DNA of 64,000 bases from Hydrogenovibrio halophilus DSM 15072 (GCF_000384235.1 NZ_KB913033.1:1929164-1993163), one strand, 5' to 3'. Positions 5,779 through 15,902 are shown, counted from the stretch's first letter. Notes: a model not told the origin generated them from the letters alone. Translations and numbers: made by a program.

Positions 5779-5824
5779 TGGTTAACGGGGCCGCTGCACT
5801 GTCCCCATTACCAACGGCGTTATG
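5779..5824 (+). other. Possible integron attC-like recombination site
   Basis: The stretch begins with GTTAACGGGGCCG and ends with CAACGGCGTTATG. TAAC/GTTA and GCCG/CGGC can pair as the outer arms of an imperfect hairpin, and GCGTTATG resembles the R' core of attC sites. The next ORF starts at the ATG inside this core, as is common for gene cassettes. The match is imperfect and no folding was run. Confidence 0.4.
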
Positions 5825-7144
5825 ACTGAGGTGATAAAATTGAGTGAGATGTTTGAAATAGCCTATGCGGCTGCATCGAATAGGCTATGCTTTTTTACGG
5901 GAACAGGATTCTCCAAGGCAGCTTCAGATAATTCTGCACCGAGTTGGCAAGGTCTTCTCGAGGAAGTTTGTGAGCTACTTCCAAACGAGGATAGTTTGAA
6001 AAACGGTTTGTTCCCAGAAGGGAAGAGCAGCCCCTTGAGCCTAGAAGAGGCTGCTCAGGTGATTTCAATTGAACTAAGTTCGTATGGAAAAAGTATTCAC
6101 GAAGAGGTTTCTAAAATAATTTCACGAATTAAACTAAAAGGCGACAATGACCATCTGAGTGAATTCTTCTCATCAAGAGCATTTAGGGTTGTTACGACCA
6201 ATTATGATAAGCTCGCAGAAGAACTAACATCTGATAATGAGTGCCACTCAATAGCCCCTGGGTTGCCAATCCCCAAGTCACCCGCGAGTGTGAAAATCTA
6301 TCATGTCCACGGATCTATAGATTCTCCGCACAACATGGTTTTAACTTCTGATGACTATTTTAAATTTATCAATAATCATTCTTATTTTTCGAGAAAGTTA
6401 AGCACAGTTTTGCACGAGAACACTGTTGTTATATTGGGTTATTCTCTTGGTGATACAAACCTAAAAGCAATAATGAGCGACTATAAAGGTTTCTCAAAAA
6501 GCCATGTTGTGGGGGCTAATATTTTTCTCGTAGCAAGGTCTTTAGTGGATCAACATGTAAAAGACTATTATTCTCATTGTTACGGAATAAGGGTCATTGA
6601 TAACTTGGATATCTATGATTTTTTTCAAGAGTTAAATGAAAAAATTCCACGAGTGGAACGGATTGTTGATAAATCGATAAAGCATATTAGGAAGGTAATT
6701 TATGATGAGCGGTCTTTCAAGAAAAGTTATCTTAGTCTTGAAGACTCTTTTTCAAAAATAATTTCTTCGCTATCGGCGGAAGGCTTAAGCTTGGAAAACG
6801 AAAGGGTAGTTGAAGTTCTTGGAGAAATTATTGATGCTAAACGGGAACTAACTACTGAGAACAATGCCTGGGAGCAATATGTGCATTTTGCAAAGTGGCT
6901 TATTTACTTGGGAACGATTTTTGAGATAGAAGGAACATCTATCGAAAAAATATACTTGAATGCTGTTTTGAGATCAATGCAAACAATGAGCAAGAGTTTA
7001 ATAATTGGATATTCATGGCATGCCTATAAAGCATGGAATGCTAGATGGCCATCTATAATTTCATCGAATCGCTCGTTGATTCGTAAATATATTGAAGAAA
7101 AAACAAATGATGTAGATGCTTTAGCTGTAGTGAATAGTATTTAG
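5822..7144 (+). CDS. SIR2-like domain protein, candidate anti-phage effector
   Basis: A 440-residue protein whose first ~230 residues are SIR2-like: FFTGTGFS (24-31, the nucleotide-binding loop), TTNYD (125-129), YHVHGS (160-165, with the presumed catalytic His) and GYSLGD (206-211). Stand-alone SIR2 domains in bacteria are mostly NAD-consuming effectors of phage defence. The C-terminal half (~235-440) is helical and unrecognised; it would be the sensing part by analogy. The start is uncertain: the ATG at 5822 lies in the attC-like core without a ribosome site, whereas a TTG at 5840 follows GAGGTG. AT-rich composition and cassette setting suggest transfer. Confidence 0.75.
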   Translation: MTEVIKLSEMFEIAYAAASNRLCFFTGTGFSKAASDNSAPSWQGLLEEVCELLPNEDSLKNGLFPEGKSSPLSLEEAAQVISIELSSYGKSIHEEVSKIISRIKLKGDNDHLSEFFSSRAFRVVTTNYDKLAEELTSDNECHSIAPGLPIPKSPASVKIYHVHGSIDSPHNMVLTSDDYFKFINNHSYFSRKLSTVLHENTVVILGYSLGDTNLKAIMSDYKGFSKSHVVGANIFLVARSLVDQHVKDYYSHCYGIRVIDNLDIYDFFQELNEKIPRVERIVDKSIKHIRKVIYDERSFKKSYLSLEDSFSKIISSLSAEGLSLENERVVEVLGEIIDAKRELTTENNAWEQYVHFAKWLIYLGTIFEIEGTSIEKIYLNAVLRSMQTMSKSLIIGYSWHAYKAWNARWPSIISSNRSLIRKYIEEKTNDVDALAVVNSI

Positions 7145-7267: not shown

Positions 7268-7762
7268 ATGAACTTTAACTCTTTTTATGCGGATATTCTA
7301 GCCACACTGATTGGTGGTGTGGTCTTGGCTGTTTTATTCTTTTGGTTCAGAGAAAAGGTCGTGCCCTTGCCAAGGATAACTGGGCGCTGGTATTTCGAGA
7401 TGCGCACAGTTGATACTTCTTACAAGCCCTACGATAACATGATCCTTAGATACGTCACTATCCTCTGGCGCGAAGGTAGCCGAGTTGAAGGAACGGTTGA
7501 GAAAACCTATGAAAATTCTTCTACCGGAGAACGAGACTTTGTTGGAACGAATCGTACTCGAGGTAAGGTCGAAGGTTACATGGAAAAAAACTATTTCGGT
7601 AAGGATAAAATTTTTTTGCATGTAGTCGAAGATGGTCATGGGCGCGAGTCCACAAACTTCTATGAACTCGTGGTGGATTCAAATTTGGTAATGGAAGGTA
7701 CATTTAGTTCAATGGTAGCTAACCAATCAGGCACGGTTAAATGGCAAAGAAGCAAGTTCTAA
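7268..7762 (+). CDS. Membrane-anchored beta-strand-rich protein, unknown
   Basis: A 164-residue protein with one N-terminal membrane segment (residues ~10-27) followed by a domain with regularly alternating hydrophobic residues that suggests a small beta-barrel: ITGRWYF (~37-43), RVEGTVEKTY, TRGKVEGYMEKNY, LVMEGTFSS and GTVKWQR at the end. The GxW start and G-rich turns recall lipocalin-like barrels, and the layout recalls membrane-anchored beta-barrel effectors, but I cannot assign a family. Strong ribosome site GGAGG. Its last 22 bases overlap the next gene, so the two proteins are translationally coupled. Confidence 0.7.
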   Translation: MNFNSFYADILATLIGGVVLAVLFFWFREKVVPLPRITGRWYFEMRTVDTSYKPYDNMILRYVTILWREGSRVEGTVEKTYENSSTGERDFVGTNRTRGKVEGYMEKNYFGKDKIFLHVVEDGHGRESTNFYELVVDSNLVMEGTFSSMVANQSGTVKWQRSKF

Positions 7763-8427
7763 ACTTTCTGTTTTGGGTGCTGGTAATCCCCCTAATAGTT
7801 ATTTCTCGATGGTTTGAGAAAATGTCATCAGAGAGGTTCCGGACTGATCTGGAGCAATGTCTTGATGTCGTAGACCAGTTTAAGGAGTCCGTGCCATACC
7901 CGTTTGTTAGAGTATTGATTGAAGCCGAAGATCATCGTAACGCATATCACTTCGGTGTTGACCCAATCGGAGTGCTTCGTGCTGTATGGGTTTGGCTAAT
8001 TTATGGACATACTCAGGGTGCAAGTACTATTGAGCAGCAGTTTGTTAGGGTAGTGACAGGCCGTTATGAACGTACTGCAGTCCGAAAGTTACGAGAGCAG
8101 TTGTTGGCCATAGCCATCGTTAGGCATCGCCCAAAGAAATCAATTGCATCGGCCTATTTGGCAATTGCATTCTTTGGTAGTGGCTGTGTTGGCCTAGATG
8201 GGTTGAAGTCCCACTTTGGGCACCGCTTCCATAGTGCTAGTGCAAAGCAGGCGCTTCGCTTTGTAACTCGACTTAAATATCCTCGTCCTCTTCAGCCAAG
8301 TGCGCGCTGGCACTCTAAGGTCAATGCGAGGTGTGAGGCTATTTGGTTACGCCGCGATTTAGGGGCTAACAAATCATTACAGCGGACGTTCAAAAAAGAT
8401 GGGATTTCCTTTTTTGGGACTAATTGA
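7741..8427 (+). CDS. GT51 peptidoglycan transglycosylase-like protein
   Basis: A 228-residue protein with an N-terminal membrane anchor (~7-22) and the lipid II polymerase signatures of GT51: EDHRNAYHFGVD (motif 1, catalytic Glu), QGASTIEQQFVR (motif 2) and VRKLREQLLAIAI (motif 3). It is close in length to monofunctional MtgA but diverged (GASTIEQQ in place of GGSTITQQ). No transpeptidase domain is present. It lies in a foreign cassette block rather than near cell-wall genes. The last ~20 codons read through an attC-like half site (NKSLQRT), so the true C-terminus was probably altered by truncation of that site. Confidence 0.75.
   Translation: MAKKQVLNFLFWVLVIPLIVISRWFEKMSSERFRTDLEQCLDVVDQFKESVPYPFVRVLIEAEDHRNAYHFGVDPIGVLRAVWVWLIYGHTQGASTIEQQFVRVVTGRYERTAVRKLREQLLAIAIVRHRPKKSIASAYLAIAFFGSGCVGLDGLKSHFGHRFHSASAKQALRFVTRLKYPRPLQPSARWHSKVNARCEAIWLRRDLGANKSLQRTFKKDGISFFGTN
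8363..8390 (+). other. Left half of an attC-like site at the end of the cassette block
   Basis: GGGGCTAACAAATCATTACA followed by GCGGACG matches the usual start of attC sites (R'' core GCTAAC then AAATC). The right half is missing: the sequence runs into unrelated DNA and a hairpin-repeat fragment at 8456-8490. It encodes Asn-Lys-Ser-Leu-Gln-Arg-Thr at the end of the GT51 gene, a read-through tail often seen in cassette proteins. Confidence 0.5.
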
Positions 8428-8504
8428 GAGAAGTGCATAATGTTTGGGCGGGTTTTTGAGGGTCCTTCGGCTTTTCTTGGGACGACGGGTTTATTCGCCG
8501 GATA

Positions 8505-8534
8505 GAAAAAACGCGGCTCGATGGCCGCGTTTTG
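8505..8534 (-). terminator. Intrinsic terminator of the oxidase/sulfide dehydrogenase operon
   Basis: Stem ACGCGGC (8511-8517) and GCCGCGT (8524-8530) around a 6-base loop. On the minus strand the stem is followed by a run of T, just after the last small gene of the operon. Confidence 0.75.
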
Positions 8535-8545
8535 GTTGGTGCTTA

Positions 8546-8644
8546 TCAGATGGAGACCGTGGTCACCATGCTCAGTAACCAGATCAGAAAGATGGAGCCG
8601 AAGGTCAGTATGGCTCCCCAGATGATGGCTTTCATTCCGCTCAT
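8546..8644 (-). CDS. 32-residue single-span membrane protein
   Basis: A small ORF starting MSGMKAIIWGAILTFGS and ending in VTTVSI, with one hydrophobic helix covering most of its length. A GGAGGG ribosome site lies before the ATG on the minus strand. It starts one base after the di-heme cytochrome c gene and ends before the operon terminator, so it is the last cistron. Its size and position suggest a CydX/CcoQ-like accessory subunit of the oxidase encoded upstream; this is inference from context. Confidence 0.65.
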   Translation of the reverse strand: MSGMKAIIWGAILTFGSIFLIWLLSMVTTVSI

Positions 8645-9361
8645 TTAAGATCCCTCCAGATTGGCATAATACTGGGCCAGCGCTTCGATTTCGGCGTCGG
8701 TCAGTGGTTTGGCCAGTTGCGACATGCCCTGGCTGACGTCGTTGTGACGTTCGCCGTCTTTGTAGGCCTGCATGGTGCGTTGGAAATATTCCGGCACCTG
8801 TCCGGCCAGCGCCGGGGTGATGCCATTGCCCTGACCGTTCACGCCGTGGCACGAAGAGCAGGGCACCAGCAGCCGCGAGGCGTCGCCTTTTCGTACCAGT
8901 TTGTCGGCCATTTTAAAGCGTTCGTCCGACAGGTTCTGCTGAATTTCCCAATCGGACAAAGACTGGTCGGCATAAAACGCGGCCACATCAGCGATTTCCT
9001 GATCGCTCATGGCCTGAGCCAGCTTGACCATGATGTTGGCCTGGCCGTAATCTTCCCAGCGGCGGGCGTCGCGATAGTCCAGCATCATTTTCATGGTGTA
9101 TTCCGGTGTTTGCCCGTTCAGTGAACTGAAATTACGCGAAGGGGACTGGCCGTTTTCGCCGTGACAGGAGGCGCACATCATTTGGGTGTGCACGGTCTGG
9201 CCCCGTTCGACATTGCCTTTGGGCATCTCGTTCAGTGTCTGGTTCAGAGACTGATGCGTCCAAGCCTCGGCCTTGAGCTTGTCGCCGTGGCCGCCGGCCA
9301 GCGCCAGCGCAGGCACCAGCACACAGGCACTGATGGCTGAGTGGATGGATGTTTTTTTCAT
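8645..9361 (-). CDS. Di-heme cytochrome c (c4/FccA-like)
   Basis: Periplasmic electron carrier of about 238 residues with a Sec signal peptide (MKKTSIHSAISACVLVPALALA) and two heme-binding motifs, CASCH and CSSCH, each followed by a Met-containing region, as in cytochrome c4 and the FccA subunit of flavocytochrome c. I chose the ATG at 9361 because AAAAGG precedes it and the signal peptide starts there; an upstream ATG at 9385 is less likely. It directly follows fccB and probably accepts electrons from it. Confidence 0.85.
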   Translation of the reverse strand: MKKTSIHSAISACVLVPALALAGGHGDKLKAEAWTHQSLNQTLNEMPKGNVERGQTVHTQMMCASCHGENGQSPSRNFSSLNGQTPEYTMKMMLDYRDARRWEDYGQANIMVKLAQAMSDQEIADVAAFYADQSLSDWEIQQNLSDERFKMADKLVRKGDASRLLVPCSSCHGVNGQGNGITPALAGQVPEYFQRTMQAYKDGERHNDVSQGMSQLAKPLTDAEIEALAQYYANLEGS

Positions 9362-9395
9362 AACCTTTTTCCCTTTTGAATCCATGGTTTCCGCC

Positions 9396-10727
9396 TTAAT
9401 AGAACACGTCTTTGACGAATTCGCGGTGCCAGTTTTTCTGATAGACCGCTTCCAGAATCGGCTGGGCCGGTTTGTCGGTAATCTCTGACACGCCCGCTGA
9501 GTCGCCTTTGGGTTGAATCAGACCGTCGCGGACTTCGTAAATCGCGGCAATGGAGACGCCGTAATTCTGTCCGGCCAGGCTGTAGCAGACATTGGAATAA
9601 ATGGCTCTGCCCGGCGATTCGCCTTTGAGCGTGTCGGCCACGGCTTTGGCGCAGACCTTGGCCTGCGAGTTGGCCGAGTAGCCGGATTTGGGCATGGCGT
9701 CGGCAATGGTGCTGTCGCCCAGCACATACACTTCATCATGGCGCATGGATTCAAAGGTGTGGCGATTGATCGGGCACCAGCCGGACTCGTCGGTCAGATC
9801 CAGATTTTGCGCCAGCTTTCCGGCCCGCTGGTTGGGGATGATGTTGATCAAGTCCGCCTGAAAATCTTCGACCACCGCCTGAACCTGATTGGTTTTCGGG
9901 TCCAGTCGCGTGACCTGGCCGCCATCGGAACCGGAAACCCACTCAATCAGGCTGTTATCGGTTTTGTAGCCATACAGGCGTTCCCACGCTTTTTTGAAGG
10001 GCACGTCTTTGGTGAAACGGTCCTTGGGATCGAGCACAATCACCTTGCCGGTGGGGTTGTGTTTTTTCAGGTATTCGGCAAAGAACGAAATCCGCTCATA
10101 AGGCCCCGGCGGACAGCGGAACGGGTTCTGCGGCGGGGCGATGATCGCGGTGCCGCCCTGTGGCAGGTTTTCCAGTTGCTGTTTCAGCTTGAGGGTTTGC
10201 GGCCCGGCTTTGTAGGCGTGCGGATGGGTGGTGTCGGCCACCTGTTCGTTGAAGCCTTCGATGTTGTCATAGACGAAATCGATGCCGGGGGAGACCACCA
10301 GTTTGTCGTAAGACACGACCTCGCCTTTCTGGGTGCGGACGGTTTTTTGGTCAAAGTCCGCGCCCACCACCCTGTCGATGATCACGTTTACATTGTATTT
10401 GGAACGAATCGTGTCCAGATTGAAAGTCAGTTCGTCCAGTGTGTGCATGCCCACCAGCACATCGTTGCTGCGCAGGCAGGTGATGTATTCCGGGTATTGC
10501 TCGATAATGGTGATTTTGACGTCCGGGTCGGCAAAGCGCAGGTATTTGGCAAAAGTGGACCCGCCGACGCCACCGCCCAGAATCACCACATGCGCGGCGG
10601 ATTGGGCGAAGGCCTTGTTGCTGGCCCCGAAAATGCCGGTCGCGGCCACCGCAGAGGCCCCGAACAGTTTGACCAGATCCCGGCGTGTGATTTTGCGATC
10701 AAAGGTTTGTTGTTCCAGTCGGCTCAT
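9396..10727 (-). CDS. fccB: Flavocytochrome c sulfide dehydrogenase, flavoprotein subunit
   Basis: A 443-residue periplasmic flavoprotein that oxidises sulfide and passes electrons to cytochrome c. It has a twin-arginine signal (ITRRDLVKLFG, residues ~13-23), then an FAD-binding fold (HVVILGGGVGGSTFAKYL). Three functional cysteines of the family are visible: the FAD-attachment Cys in YPEYITCLRSN, and the redox disulfide pair in RCPPGPYERI and NVCYSLAG. The C-terminal flavocytochrome-binding domain is complete. It lies between a mono-heme and a di-heme cytochrome c; its start overlaps the mono-heme gene by four bases. Confidence 0.9.
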   Translation of the reverse strand: MSRLEQQTFDRKITRRDLVKLFGASAVAATGIFGASNKAFAQSAAHVVILGGGVGGSTFAKYLRFADPDVKITIIEQYPEYITCLRSNDVLVGMHTLDELTFNLDTIRSKYNVNVIIDRVVGADFDQKTVRTQKGEVVSYDKLVVSPGIDFVYDNIEGFNEQVADTTHPHAYKAGPQTLKLKQQLENLPQGGTAIIAPPQNPFRCPPGPYERISFFAEYLKKHNPTGKVIVLDPKDRFTKDVPFKKAWERLYGYKTDNSLIEWVSGSDGGQVTRLDPKTNQVQAVVEDFQADLINIIPNQRAGKLAQNLDLTDESGWCPINRHTFESMRHDEVYVLGDSTIADAMPKSGYSANSQAKVCAKAVADTLKGESPGRAIYSNVCYSLAGQNYGVSIAAIYEVRDGLIQPKGDSAGVSEITDKPAQPILEAVYQKNWHREFVKDVFY

Positions 10728-11188
10728 TGTTGACCTCCCATGGCGTTTTTGGCGGCCTCGGATGCCTTGTAGGCTTCCTCCAGCTCGGTGTTTTGCCAGG
10801 CTTTGTAGGGTTGTTTTTCAAACCAGATGGCCATGGCGTGGATTTCTTCGTCGGTAAAGCCGCGTGCGACCCGGTCCATGATCACCGCATCGCGCGAGCC
10901 GTCCCGATAGGCCAGCATGGCGCGCTCAAAGGTTTCCACCGGCAAACCGGCCAGCGGCGGCATGGCTTCGGTCATGGCCTGTCCGTTGGTGCCGTGACAG
11001 GGCGCGCATTGCTGCGCCATGGCTTCGCCCAATTTGGCTGTGATCGATGACGATTTGGCGTCGTCCTGCGCCTGCGCGGGTGTGCCTGCAAACAGGCTTA
11101 AGCTCAGGCACAGACCAGAAAGTCTGAGTGTGTTGTTTGTCATTGTTTTGCTCCTTTTACTGTGCCCAGACCCAAAAACCGACGGCAA
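10724..11188 (-). CDS. Mono-heme class I cytochrome c
   Basis: A secreted cytochrome c of about 150 residues with a signal peptide (LCLSLSLFAGTPAQA) and one CAPCH heme site near residue 62, followed by MPPLAGLP and a C-terminal helix typical of c4/FccA-type domains. The ATG at 11146 (MTNNTLRL), which follows GGAGCAAAAC, is a likelier start than 11188. It is co-transcribed with fccB and the oxidase and probably shuttles electrons between them. Confidence 0.8.
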   Translation of the reverse strand: MPSVFGSGHSKRSKTMTNNTLRLSGLCLSLSLFAGTPAQAQDDAKSSSITAKLGEAMAQQCAPCHGTNGQAMTEAMPPLAGLPVETFERAMLAYRDGSRDAVIMDRVARGFTDEEIHAMAIWFEKQPYKAWQNTELEEAYKASEAAKNAMGGQQ

Positions 11189-12404
11189 AGAATTGCACCA
11201 TCCATAGCAAGAGAATCCAGATGGCGGCGGTGCCCATGCGATCCACGGTGGCGCTGGGGGTATACACGCCTTTGGTCTGGCCGACCTTCCAGGCCACGGT
11301 GAGGTAATAGCTCAAAACAGCACCGCCCAATACCGCAAAGGTAATAAAGAACAGCGCGGTCGAGTACCAGTCCATCACCACCTTGTAGTCCATAAAGTCG
11401 TAGCCGAAAAAGCCTTCCAGAATGCCGTAGCGCAGCATTTCACGGGTGATGGCGACCACCAGGCCTGCCACCACGGCCATGGGCAAAGCCATGTAGCTGC
11501 AGAGGGGCGAATTGTCTTTGAGTCGAACCTTGGCCCAGAGCGCGTAGGCGACCAGTGCCACGCCCCCGGCAATGCCCCAGAAGGAGGTGCCGAAGTCACC
11601 GGCGGTGTCGGGCAGGGTCATCATCCAGCCGATGTAAAAGACCAGCGCGATGGCGGAACCGACCGAAATCCATTTTTTGCCTACTGCCGCGGCAAAGTCC
11701 AGATAGTCCATGTCGGCGTCTTCACGCACCATTTTGAAACGGCGGTAGGTCACCATCATGGCCCCGGCCACCGGAATCGCCATGCTGATAAAGAAGCCGA
11801 AGCGCCACAGGTTGCTGGCATGCAGTTTGGAGCCGGAATAGTCCATCTGTCCGTTTTGCATGTACCAGCTCTGCCACAGTTCCGGGTGCAGCATCTGCTT
11901 GGTCAGGTTGTGCATGATGTAGCCCACGACCAACAGCAGGATCACACTCAGAATCATCGACCAGCGCGCTTTGGGCGCGGTGTTTTTGTCCTGTTGCTTG
12001 GCGTTCTGGAAGTAATAGAAATACATCGACCAGTAAGCCAGAATCAGAATCAGGATAAAGGCGATGACCCAGTCGGCCGAGAGCACATTGGAGGTGTACC
12101 ACTGCGGGTCATAGATGACCTGCACAAACAGCAGCGGGGCGACCCCGATCACAATCGCGACCGAAACCGAGACTTTGGCCACCTCGAGCATGGCCGCACT
12201 CAGGCGATGCCAGTAGGGGCGATTGCTGAACGCGCCCACCAGGGTGACCCCGGCGGTGCCCAGCATCAGTTGCACAAAGAAAATGTGCAGGGCAAAAGTG
12301 AGTACCCCCAGTGTCATAAAGACAATGGGATAGGTCGGAACCCCTGCGGGATTGCGCAGGGCATACATCATGTCGGTGATGTGTTGAACGTTTCCTGCAT
12401 CCAT
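11157..12404 (-). CDS. Second membrane subunit of a cytochrome bd-superfamily oxidase
   Basis: A 415-residue integral membrane protein with about nine hydrophobic helices (for example near residues 25-50, 80-100, 110-130, 145-165, 200-220, 245-265, 275-290, 300-325, 360-380). It is encoded directly after the c-heme-carrying CydA-like subunit with a 4-base overlap (12404), the usual arrangement for two-subunit bd-type oxidases. It contains His and Glu residues within helices (AITREMLRYG, FALHIFFVQ) but I did not see canonical CydB motifs. Assignment rests on partner and topology. Confidence 0.65.
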   Translation of the reverse strand: MDAGNVQHITDMMYALRNPAGVPTYPIVFMTLGVLTFALHIFFVQLMLGTAGVTLVGAFSNRPYWHRLSAAMLEVAKVSVSVAIVIGVAPLLFVQVIYDPQWYTSNVLSADWVIAFILILILAYWSMYFYYFQNAKQQDKNTAPKARWSMILSVILLLVVGYIMHNLTKQMLHPELWQSWYMQNGQMDYSGSKLHASNLWRFGFFISMAIPVAGAMMVTYRRFKMVREDADMDYLDFAAAVGKKWISVGSAIALVFYIGWMMTLPDTAGDFGTSFWGIAGGVALVAYALWAKVRLKDNSPLCSYMALPMAVVAGLVVAITREMLRYGILEGFFGYDFMDYKVVMDWYSTALFFITFAVLGGAVLSYYLTVAWKVGQTKGVYTPSATVDRMGTAAIWILLLWMVQFFAVGFWVWAQ

Positions 12405-13885
12405 TAGTTTGCCTCCTGTGAGGTTGCGGTGTTGAGGCTGACGATGGCGGCTTTTTGCTGCTGGCCGTCGCCGGATTCCTGCACCAGTGCTTTCTGTTTG
12501 CGCTCGGCAATTTCTTTGTCAATCGCCGCGGTGATCGCCTCTTGTCCGCCTTCGTTGTTGAGCAACAGGTAGGACGCCAGTGCCGTGACCTCTTTTTCGG
12601 TCATGGGCATTTTGGGCATGTAGGCGATGGTGCCGGGTTCGATCACGCCGCGAATGTAGTCTTCCATCCGAGCCTGAGTCATGCCCTCGGGGAAGTAGCG
12701 GTGCAGCGGACGGATCCCGGTACGGCTGGGCGAGTGGCAGTTGGAGCAATAGGTCATGGTGATGAATTCACCGGCCTGAATATGATTGCCTGCGTTCACC
12801 TCGCGCAAATGTTCCGGTGTGAAAGGGTGCGCTTTGAGCAAACCGACTTTCTCCAGCGTTGGCAATTGCGATTCGATGTCCATGCCGGGCACGTCGCGTC
12901 CGATCACCTGGTTGGAATAAACGTATTGACCGGCGACCCAGGGCTTGCGCATGGATTCGCGCGCGGTTTCTTCCGGCCACAGACCCGCCACCAGAATGAT
13001 GATGGTCATGGCACCGGCAAAGCCCTGTACCAGCAAGCGCGGTTGAATCATGGTGACAATGAAATAACCCAAAGTCCCGGCCAGAACCGCCATGATGCTG
13101 GGTTCAAAATAATCGGGCAGACGGTTTTCCATCACCAGCAGCGCCTGTTCGGGCACGGAGGTGATGTACCACTGGAATAGGGCCGCGCCGATCAGGGTAC
13201 TGATGATGCCCAGCCAGCCGAGTTTGCGTGTCATTTCCTTTTTGAAGGCCGCGTCCTTGATGGTGGAGACGACAATGCCCCCGACCACGGCGGTCATGGT
13301 GAACATAAAGGCGACCCGCATGCCCATCTGCACAAAGGTGTTGGTGCCGTAAAAGCCGTTGAGGTAACCGCCTTCGGCGAACCACTGTTCTTTGCCGGGC
13401 AGCATCATGAACGACAGTATGCCGATGATGATCACCATGGTCGCCAGTGAAGAAATCCCGAAAATCAGGGAAATTTTCATGTGGGTCTTTTTATCAACCT
13501 TACCCACCAGGTACACGATCATGTAAACCCCGACCACTTCGATCACAAAGAACACCCATTCGGTGGCCCACTTCCACACAAAGGAGTGAATCAGAGCGCC
13601 GATGCCATTGGGGCTGCCCACGGTGGTGGAGTACCAGATGCCGGGCCCGGTGATGGAACCGGCAACATAGGTGAACACCAGTAGAAACAGACCGTAGCGT
13701 TTGACGAAGTCCAGATAGTCCGGCCGGTCTTCCTTGTAGGAGCGGTAGGAGAGGTAAGCGAAAAGCATGGCCGCACCAACCGAGGTGTGGGAGGCGAGCA
13801 CATGGAAGGTCGCAATGATCCCGATCACCCAGCCGGAGCCAAGATTGGGCTCAAACCAGGTGGGGTAGAGGCTGATCAGTTCCAT
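12404..13885 (-). CDS. Cytochrome bd-superfamily oxidase subunit I with fused c-type heme domain
   Basis: A 493-residue protein. Residues ~1-310 form a CydA-like membrane part (FHVLASHTSVGAAML; GSITGPGIWYSTTVG; WATEWVFFVIEVVGVY, with a membrane Glu as in CydA). From ~330 a periplasmic domain carries one heme c site (YCSNCHS, ~390) and MPKMPM as possible Met ligand. The CydA Q-loop signature GRQPW is absent. This fits the known branch of the bd superfamily that carries cytochrome c domains and probably takes electrons from cytochrome c instead of quinol. It is first in the operon, ahead of cytochromes c and fccB. Confidence 0.7.
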   Translation of the reverse strand: MELISLYPTWFEPNLGSGWVIGIIATFHVLASHTSVGAAMLFAYLSYRSYKEDRPDYLDFVKRYGLFLLVFTYVAGSITGPGIWYSTTVGSPNGIGALIHSFVWKWATEWVFFVIEVVGVYMIVYLVGKVDKKTHMKISLIFGISSLATMVIIIGILSFMMLPGKEQWFAEGGYLNGFYGTNTFVQMGMRVAFMFTMTAVVGGIVVSTIKDAAFKKEMTRKLGWLGIISTLIGAALFQWYITSVPEQALLVMENRLPDYFEPSIMAVLAGTLGYFIVTMIQPRLLVQGFAGAMTIIILVAGLWPEETARESMRKPWVAGQYVYSNQVIGRDVPGMDIESQLPTLEKVGLLKAHPFTPEHLREVNAGNHIQAGEFITMTYCSNCHSPSRTGIRPLHRYFPEGMTQARMEDYIRGVIEPGTIAYMPKMPMTEKEVTALASYLLLNNEGGQEAITAAIDKEIAERKQKALVQESGDGQQQKAAIVSLNTATSQEAN

Positions 13886-14124
13886 AAGCCAATATCCTTA
13901 TTTATTAAGTGGGTTTATCCTGAGCAAGGAAAATTTATAGTACGCAGTGAATTTTACGGATGGATGACACAATTGGAACTAGAAATAATTTATGTGGCTC
14001 GTGCATAAAAACTAATGATCTGGTCAAAATCGTTATCTATGGGAGGTTGAGAGGGCCTGTGCGTTGCACAATGGTTGCGAAATTTCGGCTTGTGCCGGAT
14101 TAGAATGTGTATTCTAATAAGGTC
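13886..14124. promoter_or_regulatory. Divergent control region between the oxidase operon and the TetR gene
   Basis: This 239-bp gene-free stretch must hold the promoters of both flanking transcription units. The only clear site is a perfect inverted repeat next to the tetR start, listed separately. Confidence 0.5.
14100..14117. promoter_or_regulatory. Palindromic operator candidate for the adjacent TetR protein
   Basis: A perfect inverted repeat TTAGAAT-GTGT-ATTCTAA, 7-bp arms and 4-bp spacer, ends seven bases before the ATG at 14125. This is the size and position expected for an autoregulatory TetR operator. It also argues against the GTG start at 14107, which lies inside the palindrome. 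Confidence 0.6.
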
Positions 14125-14805
14125 ATGTCATCCATTCAGCCCATTTCATCCACCAACGAGCCAGCGCCTTGGCCGCGTTCGTTTTTTTACAGTCTGAAGC
14201 TGCCGGCTTCACAGAAGAAGGTGTTGGATTCGGCGCTGGTGCTGTTTGACCAGCAGGGGTACTTCAGTACCTCCATTGCCGATCTGGTCACCCATTCCGG
14301 GGTCAGTTCCGGTTCGATTTATCATGCGTTTGGCGACAAGGAAACTATCGCCCGGCGTCTGATGCTGGCACTGCTGGAACAGTTGGAACAGGCGCAGACG
14401 CGGATCATCGGCGAGCATGACGGCGGCTGGGAGCGTTACCGCCATCTGGTGGACTGGATGATGGGCGAAGCGCAGACCCACCCGCACGCCATGCGCTTTA
14501 TCCTGCAGGCGCGGCATCAGGAATTTTTGCCGGAGCAACCGCCGGTGTGTGCGCAGCAGCCGTTTGTGACCCTGCGCCGGGTGCTGGTGGAGGCGCAGAA
14601 CGCCGGGGAAATCGCTTCCATGCCACCGATGCAGGCGGCGGCGCTGGCGTATGGGCCGGTGTTGCGTTGGATTCAGTTTTATTTGGACGGTTTGTTACCA
14701 GGCCTGGTCAAAAGTGAATGGCAATCACTGGCGCAACAGGCCTGGCAAAGTCTGGCAAACACATCAGAGCGCAAAGCGCAGAATGCAATCAAGGAGCAAG
14801 CATGA
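14125..14805 (+). CDS. TetR/AcrR-family transcriptional regulator
   Basis: A regulator of about 226 residues with an N-terminal helix-turn-helix (VLDSALVLFDQQGYFSTSI...SGVSSGSIYHAFGDKETIARR) of the TetR type and a C-terminal ligand domain of unknown specificity. It overlaps by four bases the downstream metallo-beta-lactamase-fold gene and lies divergently to the oxidase/fccB operon, either of which could be its target. An ACCAGGCCTGGT copy (14697-14708) is inside the gene. Confidence 0.85.
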   Translation: MSSIQPISSTNEPAPWPRSFFYSLKLPASQKKVLDSALVLFDQQGYFSTSIADLVTHSGVSSGSIYHAFGDKETIARRLMLALLEQLEQAQTRIIGEHDGGWERYRHLVDWMMGEAQTHPHAMRFILQARHQEFLPEQPPVCAQQPFVTLRRVLVEAQNAGEIASMPPMQAAALAYGPVLRWIQFYLDGLLPGLVKSEWQSLAQQAWQSLANTSERKAQNAIKEQA

Positions 14806-15902
14806 AGTTTTCAAAAACGTTATTGGCCTCGGCGATCATGGGGCTGTCAGTGAGCGCGCAGGCCAGTCAGGATCCGTATGTGGCGGGCTTTGATGCCTAT
14901 GCAAAAGAAATGCAGGCGGCCAATGCCTCCACGGCCAGCTCGTTTGATACCTATGCCAAAGATGTGGCCGGAACCCTGAAAAAAGCCGGTTACATCGGTC
15001 CGACTCTGTCTTTGCCTGAGCCGGTCAAGGTGACCGATGGCGTCTACACGGTGGTCGGCAGCCTGATCTGGCACAACCCGACCAATTTCGGCTTGAACAA
15101 CAACCTGACCTGGATGGAGTTCGAAGACGGCGTGTTTGTGTTCAATGCCGGACCCAACCCGGCTGTGGCCGGTTCGTTTCACCGCATGATCAAGGAACAC
15201 ACCGACAAGCCGGTCAAGTGGGTTGCGGTGGAAAACTCGCAGGGCCACGCTTATCTGGGCAGCAGTTACTGGGTCGATGTGGGGGTGAAAAACCTCTATT
15301 CGCATGACGTGGCCAACCAGGATTTTGACCAGAATTTTGATCACATCAAGCAGCATTGGGGCGAGCGGGTTGGTCATGAAATCACCGATTCGGCGCGCAA
15401 TGTGTCGGATCAATTCACCGAATTCAGCGACAAAATGGTGGTGGACGTCGGTGGCGGCGAAGTGGTCGAGCTGTTGAACTTTGGGCCGGGTCACACGCCT
15501 GGGTCAACATTGGTGTATGTGCCGTCGCGCAATCTGCTGCTGACCGGCGATGTGGGCTACAACAGCCGCATGCTGGCGCTGTTTTCCTACACCAACACCC
15601 AGCACTGGGTCGAAACCTTTGAGACCATGATGGATTACGTGCCCGAAGACGTGCTGGTGATTCCGGGGCACGGCGCGCCGACCGATATGGCCACAGTGAA
15701 GGAAGACACCCACGATTATCTGGTGTACATGCACCAGGAAGTGGAAAAAGTGATTGAAGCGGGCGGCGACGCGACCGCAGCCGAAGGCATTGACCAGTCG
15801 ATGTATTCCGACCGTTCGGTGTATGAGCAGACCTACAAAAACAACGCCCGCCACATTTTTAAGGAAATGACCGGCGGCGATCTGGGTGAAAATTTTGAAT
15901 GA
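14802..15902 (+). CDS. Exported metallo-beta-lactamase-fold protein with a degenerate metal motif
   Basis: A 366-residue protein with a Sec signal peptide (MKFSKTLLASAIMGLSVSAQA) and a metallo-beta-lactamase fold. The canonical HxHxDH metal motif is replaced by ENSQGH (only the last His remains), while later ligands persist: GPGHTPGS (His), TGDVGY (Asp) and PGHGAPTD (His). This suggests a one-metal or altered active site. I chose 14802 because AAGGAGCAAGC precedes the ATG. It is coupled to the upstream TetR gene. Related exported proteins occur near sulfur or quinoprotein oxidation genes; the substrate is unknown. Confidence 0.75.
   Translation: MKFSKTLLASAIMGLSVSAQASQDPYVAGFDAYAKEMQAANASTASSFDTYAKDVAGTLKKAGYIGPTLSLPEPVKVTDGVYTVVGSLIWHNPTNFGLNNNLTWMEFEDGVFVFNAGPNPAVAGSFHRMIKEHTDKPVKWVAVENSQGHAYLGSSYWVDVGVKNLYSHDVANQDFDQNFDHIKQHWGERVGHEITDSARNVSDQFTEFSDKMVVDVGGGEVVELLNFGPGHTPGSTLVYVPSRNLLLTGDVGYNSRMLALFSYTNTQHWVETFETMMDYVPEDVLVIPGHGAPTDMATVKEDTHDYLVYMHQEVEKVIEAGGDATAAEGIDQSMYSDRSVYEQTYKNNARHIFKEMTGGDLGENFE

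Follow-up and report, generated by a model that had tools for sequence, protein, structure and literature searches.

Which electron donor feeds the relatives of cytochrome bd that lack a quinol site? Such enzymes make up a sizeable part of the superfamily, with donors guessed mainly from sequence, and the question is raised anew by a locus in the 64,000-nucleotide stretch of Hydrogenovibrio halophilus DSM 15072 analysed here (the window), where an oxidase of this kind lies beside a sulfide dehydrogenase flavoprotein. A first-pass annotation described a six-gene set on the minus strand at 8546-13885, and all six open reading frames were found there. In the order of transcription they are A, a CydA-like subunit with a C-terminal heme c domain (12404-13885; open reading frame call, domain search and model); B, a second membrane subunit that is CydA-like (CydA′-type) by fold and alignment (11157-12404); c1, an exported mono-heme cytochrome c (10724-11143, with its start ATG at 11143); an FccB-like sulfide dehydrogenase flavoprotein with FCSD domains and a Tat twin-arginine pair R15R16 (9396-10727); c2, an exported, c4-like di-heme cytochrome c (8645-9385); and X, a 32-aa peptide with a single transmembrane (TM) helix (8546-8644). 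The gaps at the successive junctions A/B, B/c1, c1/FccB, FccB/c2 and c2/X are −1, 13, −4, 10 and 0 nt, c1 lying directly upstream of fccB with a 4 nt overlap, and X is followed on the same strand by a strong terminator-like hairpin with a U-run next to it (8508-8533). Neighbouring genes thus overlap or stand at most 13 nt apart, as in the single, putatively co-transcribed operon that had been proposed.

Divergent from the operon lies a gene for a TetR-family regulator (14107-14805, plus strand), and at its start a perfect palindrome TTAGAAT-N4-ATTCTAA (14100-14117), with arms of 8 nt if extended, is a likely candidate for the TetR operator; the regulator may have a role in operon control. The palindrome is also present in Thiomicrospira WB1 with a different spacer. 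A metallo-beta-lactamase-fold protein weakly resembling SoxH-related hydrolases (14718-15902) is likewise divergent from the operon and adjoins it in three close relatives. Just past the other end is a transglycosylase-domain protein (PF00912; 7741-8427), and further out a SIR2_2 domain protein similar to ThsA and other SIR2 defence proteins (5822-7144), which is followed by a membrane-type open reading frame of unknown kind.

The pairing of flavoprotein and oxidase extends well beyond the window. Within the window's own family all 23 copies with full context have the arrangement A-B-c1-FccB-c2, and three paralogous copies consist of A-B-c1 without FccB. These paralogous sets (loci L032, L033 and L034) each span about 7300-10370, and the one in L033 sits beside a divergent histidine kinase and a Fis-type response regulator. 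A scan of named genomes, taken from the best 80 of 202 matches and hence leaning to close relatives, yielded 79 loci, found in Thiomicrospira, Thiomicrorhabdus, Hydrogenovibrio, Thioalkalivibrio, Halothiobacillus, Guyparkeria, Thiothrix, Thiomonas, Thiobacillus, Hydrogenophaga, Rhodoferax, Tepidimonas, Thiohalocapsa and others, and among these best 80 of 202 matches FccB adjoins A-B in 67 of the 70 evaluable loci. In a less biased class-wide sample of 369 genomes, A was present in 10 and FccB (PF09242) in 110, and the two adjoin in 8 of the 10 A-bearing genomes, one of them detected by tblastn alone. At a generous 1% random adjacency this has a probability of about 4e-15, a figure to be read with the reservation that shared descent makes the draws not independent. 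The class-wide sample rules out chance or window-specific linkage, and since the same set recurs across more than 12 genera, the linkage of the gene set is not a matter of chance. In the tree of A a branch with support 94 sets the Fcc-linked proteins apart from the paralogs and from the unlinked types of Methylococcus, Thiobacillus and Gallionella. The FccB linkage therefore appears to be ancient and near-invariant, with one origin as the simplest reading rather than a proven one, and the earlier view that the linkage of sulfide dehydrogenase and bd-type oxidase is informative on the electron donor is supported. As a separate observation, Thiomicrorhabdus heinhorstiae (L057:4030-13435) has a second operon copy 5757 bases downstream, with at least 2650 bases identical, which is either a recent tandem duplication or an assembly artefact.

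The order of the genes is A-B-c1-Fcc-c2 in most hosts and c1-Fcc-A-B-c2 in Halothiobacillus and Guyparkeria, while Methylococcus-like loci have A-B-c2 without FccB. This suggests two modules, c1-FccB, which has the classical FccA-FccB layout, and A-B-c2, the cytochrome cbd oxidase. In the Thiomicrospira group c1, FccB and c2 split together into a near and a far set, the identity of FccB to the window's copy being 78-97% in the former and 41-47% in the latter, whereas across both sets the identity of A remains 76-94% and that of B 67-94%. Because the three share this split while A and B stay similar, the comparison indicates block-wise exchange or divergence of c1, FccB and c2, set in an A-B frame that is itself conserved. 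In the FccB tree, a branch with support 100 separates the operon proteins from 22 classical FccBs that include the two other FccBs of this genome. These patterns bear on an alternative that we regard as unlikely though worth weighing, namely that A-B-c2 serves as a copper-free cytochrome c oxidase of general use and that FccB-c1 shares only its regulation under sulfide and delivers electrons to the common cytochrome c pool, there being neither a complex nor a route reserved for the two. Judging from gene content FccB is not a requirement for the oxidase, the three paralogs and the Methylococcus type working without it, and the variable gene order likewise suits a general oxidase; a dedicated partner, however, better fits both the separate branch of the operon FccBs and the joint divergence of c1-FccB-c2.

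The identification of the flavoprotein itself was confirmed by two FCSD domains above cut-off (FCSD_central, PF21706, 139.7 bits; FCSD-flav_bind, PF09242, 56.6 bits) and by its match to 1fcd (E=4.9e-119). Its C84, C205 and C381 align to C42, C161 and C337 of 1fcd, which we take to be the flavin attachment site (Cys42) and the redox pair (Cys161 and Cys337). The redox cysteines 205 and 381 are kept in 67/67 operon FccBs, and the flavin-attaching Cys84, retained in the window copy, has given way to Pro, Gly or Ala in 45 of the 67; position 437 carries an I-to-F change in all of them. Proteins without Cys84 (from L074-L130, for example L082, L103 and L117) show the motif YIRPYGSSEV. The alignment suggests that the Cys84-less proteins are sulfide dehydrogenases with non-covalent FAD, whose chemistry or potential may not be that of classical FCSD. 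The loss of the covalent-flavin cysteine, the universal change at 437 and the divergent TetR gene and SoxH-like hydrolase beside the window operon could also be accommodated if the flavoprotein acted on another sulfur substrate (polysulfide, persulfide or an organic thiol) and served detoxification or O2 scavenging instead of energy gain; we judge this very improbable, given that the redox cysteine pair and both FCSD domains are intact and that many hosts are named sulfur oxidisers.

Subunit A has 493 aa, with 8 predicted TM helices and then the C-terminal heme c domain. In the domain search it matches the Cyt_bd_oxida_I and cytochrome c models with scores below cut-off in both cases, so automatic annotation would easily miss it. 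AlphaFold models of A and B were built on 46-sequence alignments, and that of A (pLDDT 77, moderate confidence) has cytochrome bd subunit I as its best match (6rx4_A, Z 23.7 over 303 residues). Searching solved structures with the single sequences of A or B gave no match, and profile searches against structures matched the cytochrome c part and nothing else; the folds of the membrane parts are thus predicted ones. A global hhalign run against canonical CydA gave no alignment, and local hhalign alignment of sub-regions placed H28, E116, E310 and R313 of A on H19, E107, E445 and R448 of Escherichia coli CydA. All 87 of 87 sequences, distant relatives included, share H28, E109, E116 and E310 as well as the heme c ligands, namely those of the CxxCH motif (CSNCH at 380-384 in A) and the Met ligand M423. 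The spacing of E109 to E116 is 7, versus 8 for E99/E107, and the profile alignment is gapped there. The heme b558 ligand position H186 is F or L in all 87 sequences, and around the M393 position the 87-sequence alignment shows no Met common to all. The Q-loop is shrunk to about 16 residues between TM6 and TM7, a remnant RKPW (313-316) stands at the place aligned with GRQPW of canonical CydA, and helix 9 is missing, with the heme c domain in its place. By analogy with CydA topology, eight helices and an N-terminus outside would make this domain periplasmic. The lost heme b558 ligands and quinol loop fit a cytochrome c-fed enzyme. The first-pass annotation's description of a CydA-like protein with a fused CSNCH heme domain accordingly stands, and its claim that the GRQPW signature is absent is true of the motif as such, with a degenerate form remaining. 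In the comparison of heme and proton-channel residues with the bd superfamily that it had suggested, H19, E107 and E445 are matched, H186 and M393 lost and the E99 region gapped. Among the distant relatives of A and B, three pairs (L147:6578-9351, L205:2120-4864 and L206:176-2927) have a heme c motif in both membrane subunits, and the L147 pair lies near genes that, read by eye, resemble those of soluble methane monooxygenase.

The second membrane subunit had been noted without further assignment; it is present, and CydA-like rather than CydB-like. The model of B has a CydA chain as its best match (7ose_A, Z 26.2 over 343), and CydB chains rank lower in the structure comparison, which rules out CydB as its identity. 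A and B are related to each other by profile alignment, and through this alignment H40 and E322 of B, invariant in 46/46 sequences as is R325, could be placed; inspection by eye found no equivalent of E99/E107 in B. No usable profile alignment of B with CydA was obtained, so its identity is drawn from fold and A-B similarity, by which B is modelled as a CydA-like partner and not as CydB. PF02322 (CydB) had no match in the genome, and A-B is the only bd-type oxidase that could be recognised there. An initial concern that the membrane subunits might lack heme b/d ligands or belong to a non-oxidase family was not borne out, as the active-site ligands H28, E116 and E310 of A and H40 and E322 of B are all in place in a predicted CydA fold. 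Conservation of peptide X extends over 18 sequences, all of them from the Thiomicrospira group, and since the differences among these are concentrated at codon position 3 (829, 448 and 2423 at positions 1, 2 and 3), the pattern marks X as a real gene. The 32-aa peptide has no match in Pfam or NCBIfam, so that CydX as its identity finds no support from family models; it would be a small accessory peptide. That the membrane part is not an O2 reductase and passes heme c electrons to another acceptor such as NO or quinone is highly improbable, since, for all that the active-site heme type is not readable from sequence, the active-site ligands match those of O2-reducing bd enzymes, neither the Q-loop nor the b558 ligands are present, and under copper limitation the Methylococcus relative takes the place of a copper oxidase (PMC4831470).

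Gene content, fold, the retained and lost ligands, the FccB clade and the near-invariant linkage, as established by sequence and structure prediction, make it probable in our view that the operon is a dedicated respiratory module leading from sulfide through cytochrome c to O2 and bypassing the quinone pool, bc1 and copper. Electron direction and route, O2 as the substrate, complex formation, energy yield and physiological role are what we infer from them. FccB would be exported by Tat, and sulfide would be oxidised at its FAD and the Cys205-Cys381 disulfide, from where electrons would pass to the heme partner c1. Di-heme c2 would carry electrons to the heme c domain of A, and from there they would reach two active-site hemes inside A, where O2 would be reduced to water, the protons being drawn from the cytoplasmic side; B would replace CydB as a CydA-like partner. 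With neither quinol loop nor heme b558 nor copper present, such a chain would bypass quinone pool and bc1 and would need no copper. Little copper is available where sulfide abounds, and copper oxidases are poisoned by sulfide; a copper-free chain would suit sulfidic habitats. The sulfide-to-oxygen chain avoiding the quinone pool that was envisaged from the start thus draws support from the lost b558 ligands and quinol loop, the kept active-site ligands and the FccB linkage. Since the genome also has one heme-copper oxidase and two further FccBs, redundancy is possible. More speculatively, and with less confidence than an even chance, we propose a sulfide oxidase supercomplex in which FccB, c1 and c2 are docked on a CydA-CydA′ cytochrome cbd and deliver sulfide electrons to O2 without quinone, bc1 or copper, the covalent flavin having been given up in most members of the flavoprotein branch; if true, aerobic sulfide respiration would have in it a distinct branch that spans many proteobacterial sulfur oxidisers.

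The near-invariant FccB partner offers a concrete donor hypothesis with many cultivated hosts, and the module, if true, would be an aerobic sulfide chain needing neither quinone nor copper. A survey of the context of fccAB across diverse sulfur oxidisers reported that no neighbours are conserved (PMC6382920). Our search of the openly licensed literature for papers joining FccB with a bd oxidase, in which not every match was read, found none that describes this cluster, and a Guyparkeria pangenome paper leaves the oxidase unmentioned, though a Guyparkeria genome (L115) carries the operon. The Murali 2021 study reportedly classed the bd superfamily into qOR, OR-C and OR-N, and the oxidase type of the window is probably its OR-C group. 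Novelty is limited to the dedicated FccB link, the oxidase type having already been proposed, and Murali 2021 could reduce it.

How, then, does the operon compare with known systems? MCA1187 of Methylococcus capsulatus was named ‘cytochrome cbd’ and proposed to be a copper-free cytochrome c oxidase, with transcript and proteome evidence that includes MCA1185 and MCA1187 proteins in inner membranes of copper-limited cells (PMC4831470), so that the statement that cytochrome c-linked bd enzymes are known mostly from sequence has to be qualified for this type. Cytochrome cbd (MCA1185-1187) corresponds to A in being CydA-like with 8 TM helices and a C-terminal CxxCH, and in lacking Q-loop, H186/M393 and helix 9, and genes for a second membrane protein and a di-heme cytochrome c likewise adjoin it; unlike the operon, its cluster has no FccB and no mono-heme c, its proposed donor is the ordinary bc1 chain and its expression is tied to copper limitation (PMC4831470). 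OR-C and OR-N are described in citing papers as bd superfamily members without quinol site that are reportedly cytochrome c-fed, OR-N being reported next to ACIII or in nitrite oxidisers (PMC10839748, PMC12342949); A-B shares with them, by this description, the superfamily and the missing quinol site. FccAB (1fcd) resembles the operon flavoprotein in FCSD domains, redox cysteine pair, Tat export and a heme subunit gene directly upstream, but the operon FccB belongs to a separate branch that is fixed to the oxidase operon and mostly without the flavin-attaching cysteine. With E. coli cytochrome bd-I (CydABX) the operon has in common the CydA fold, the active-site heme ligands and a small single-TM peptide, and it differs in having no b558 site, Q-loop or CydB, and in carrying a heme c domain in place of helix 9.
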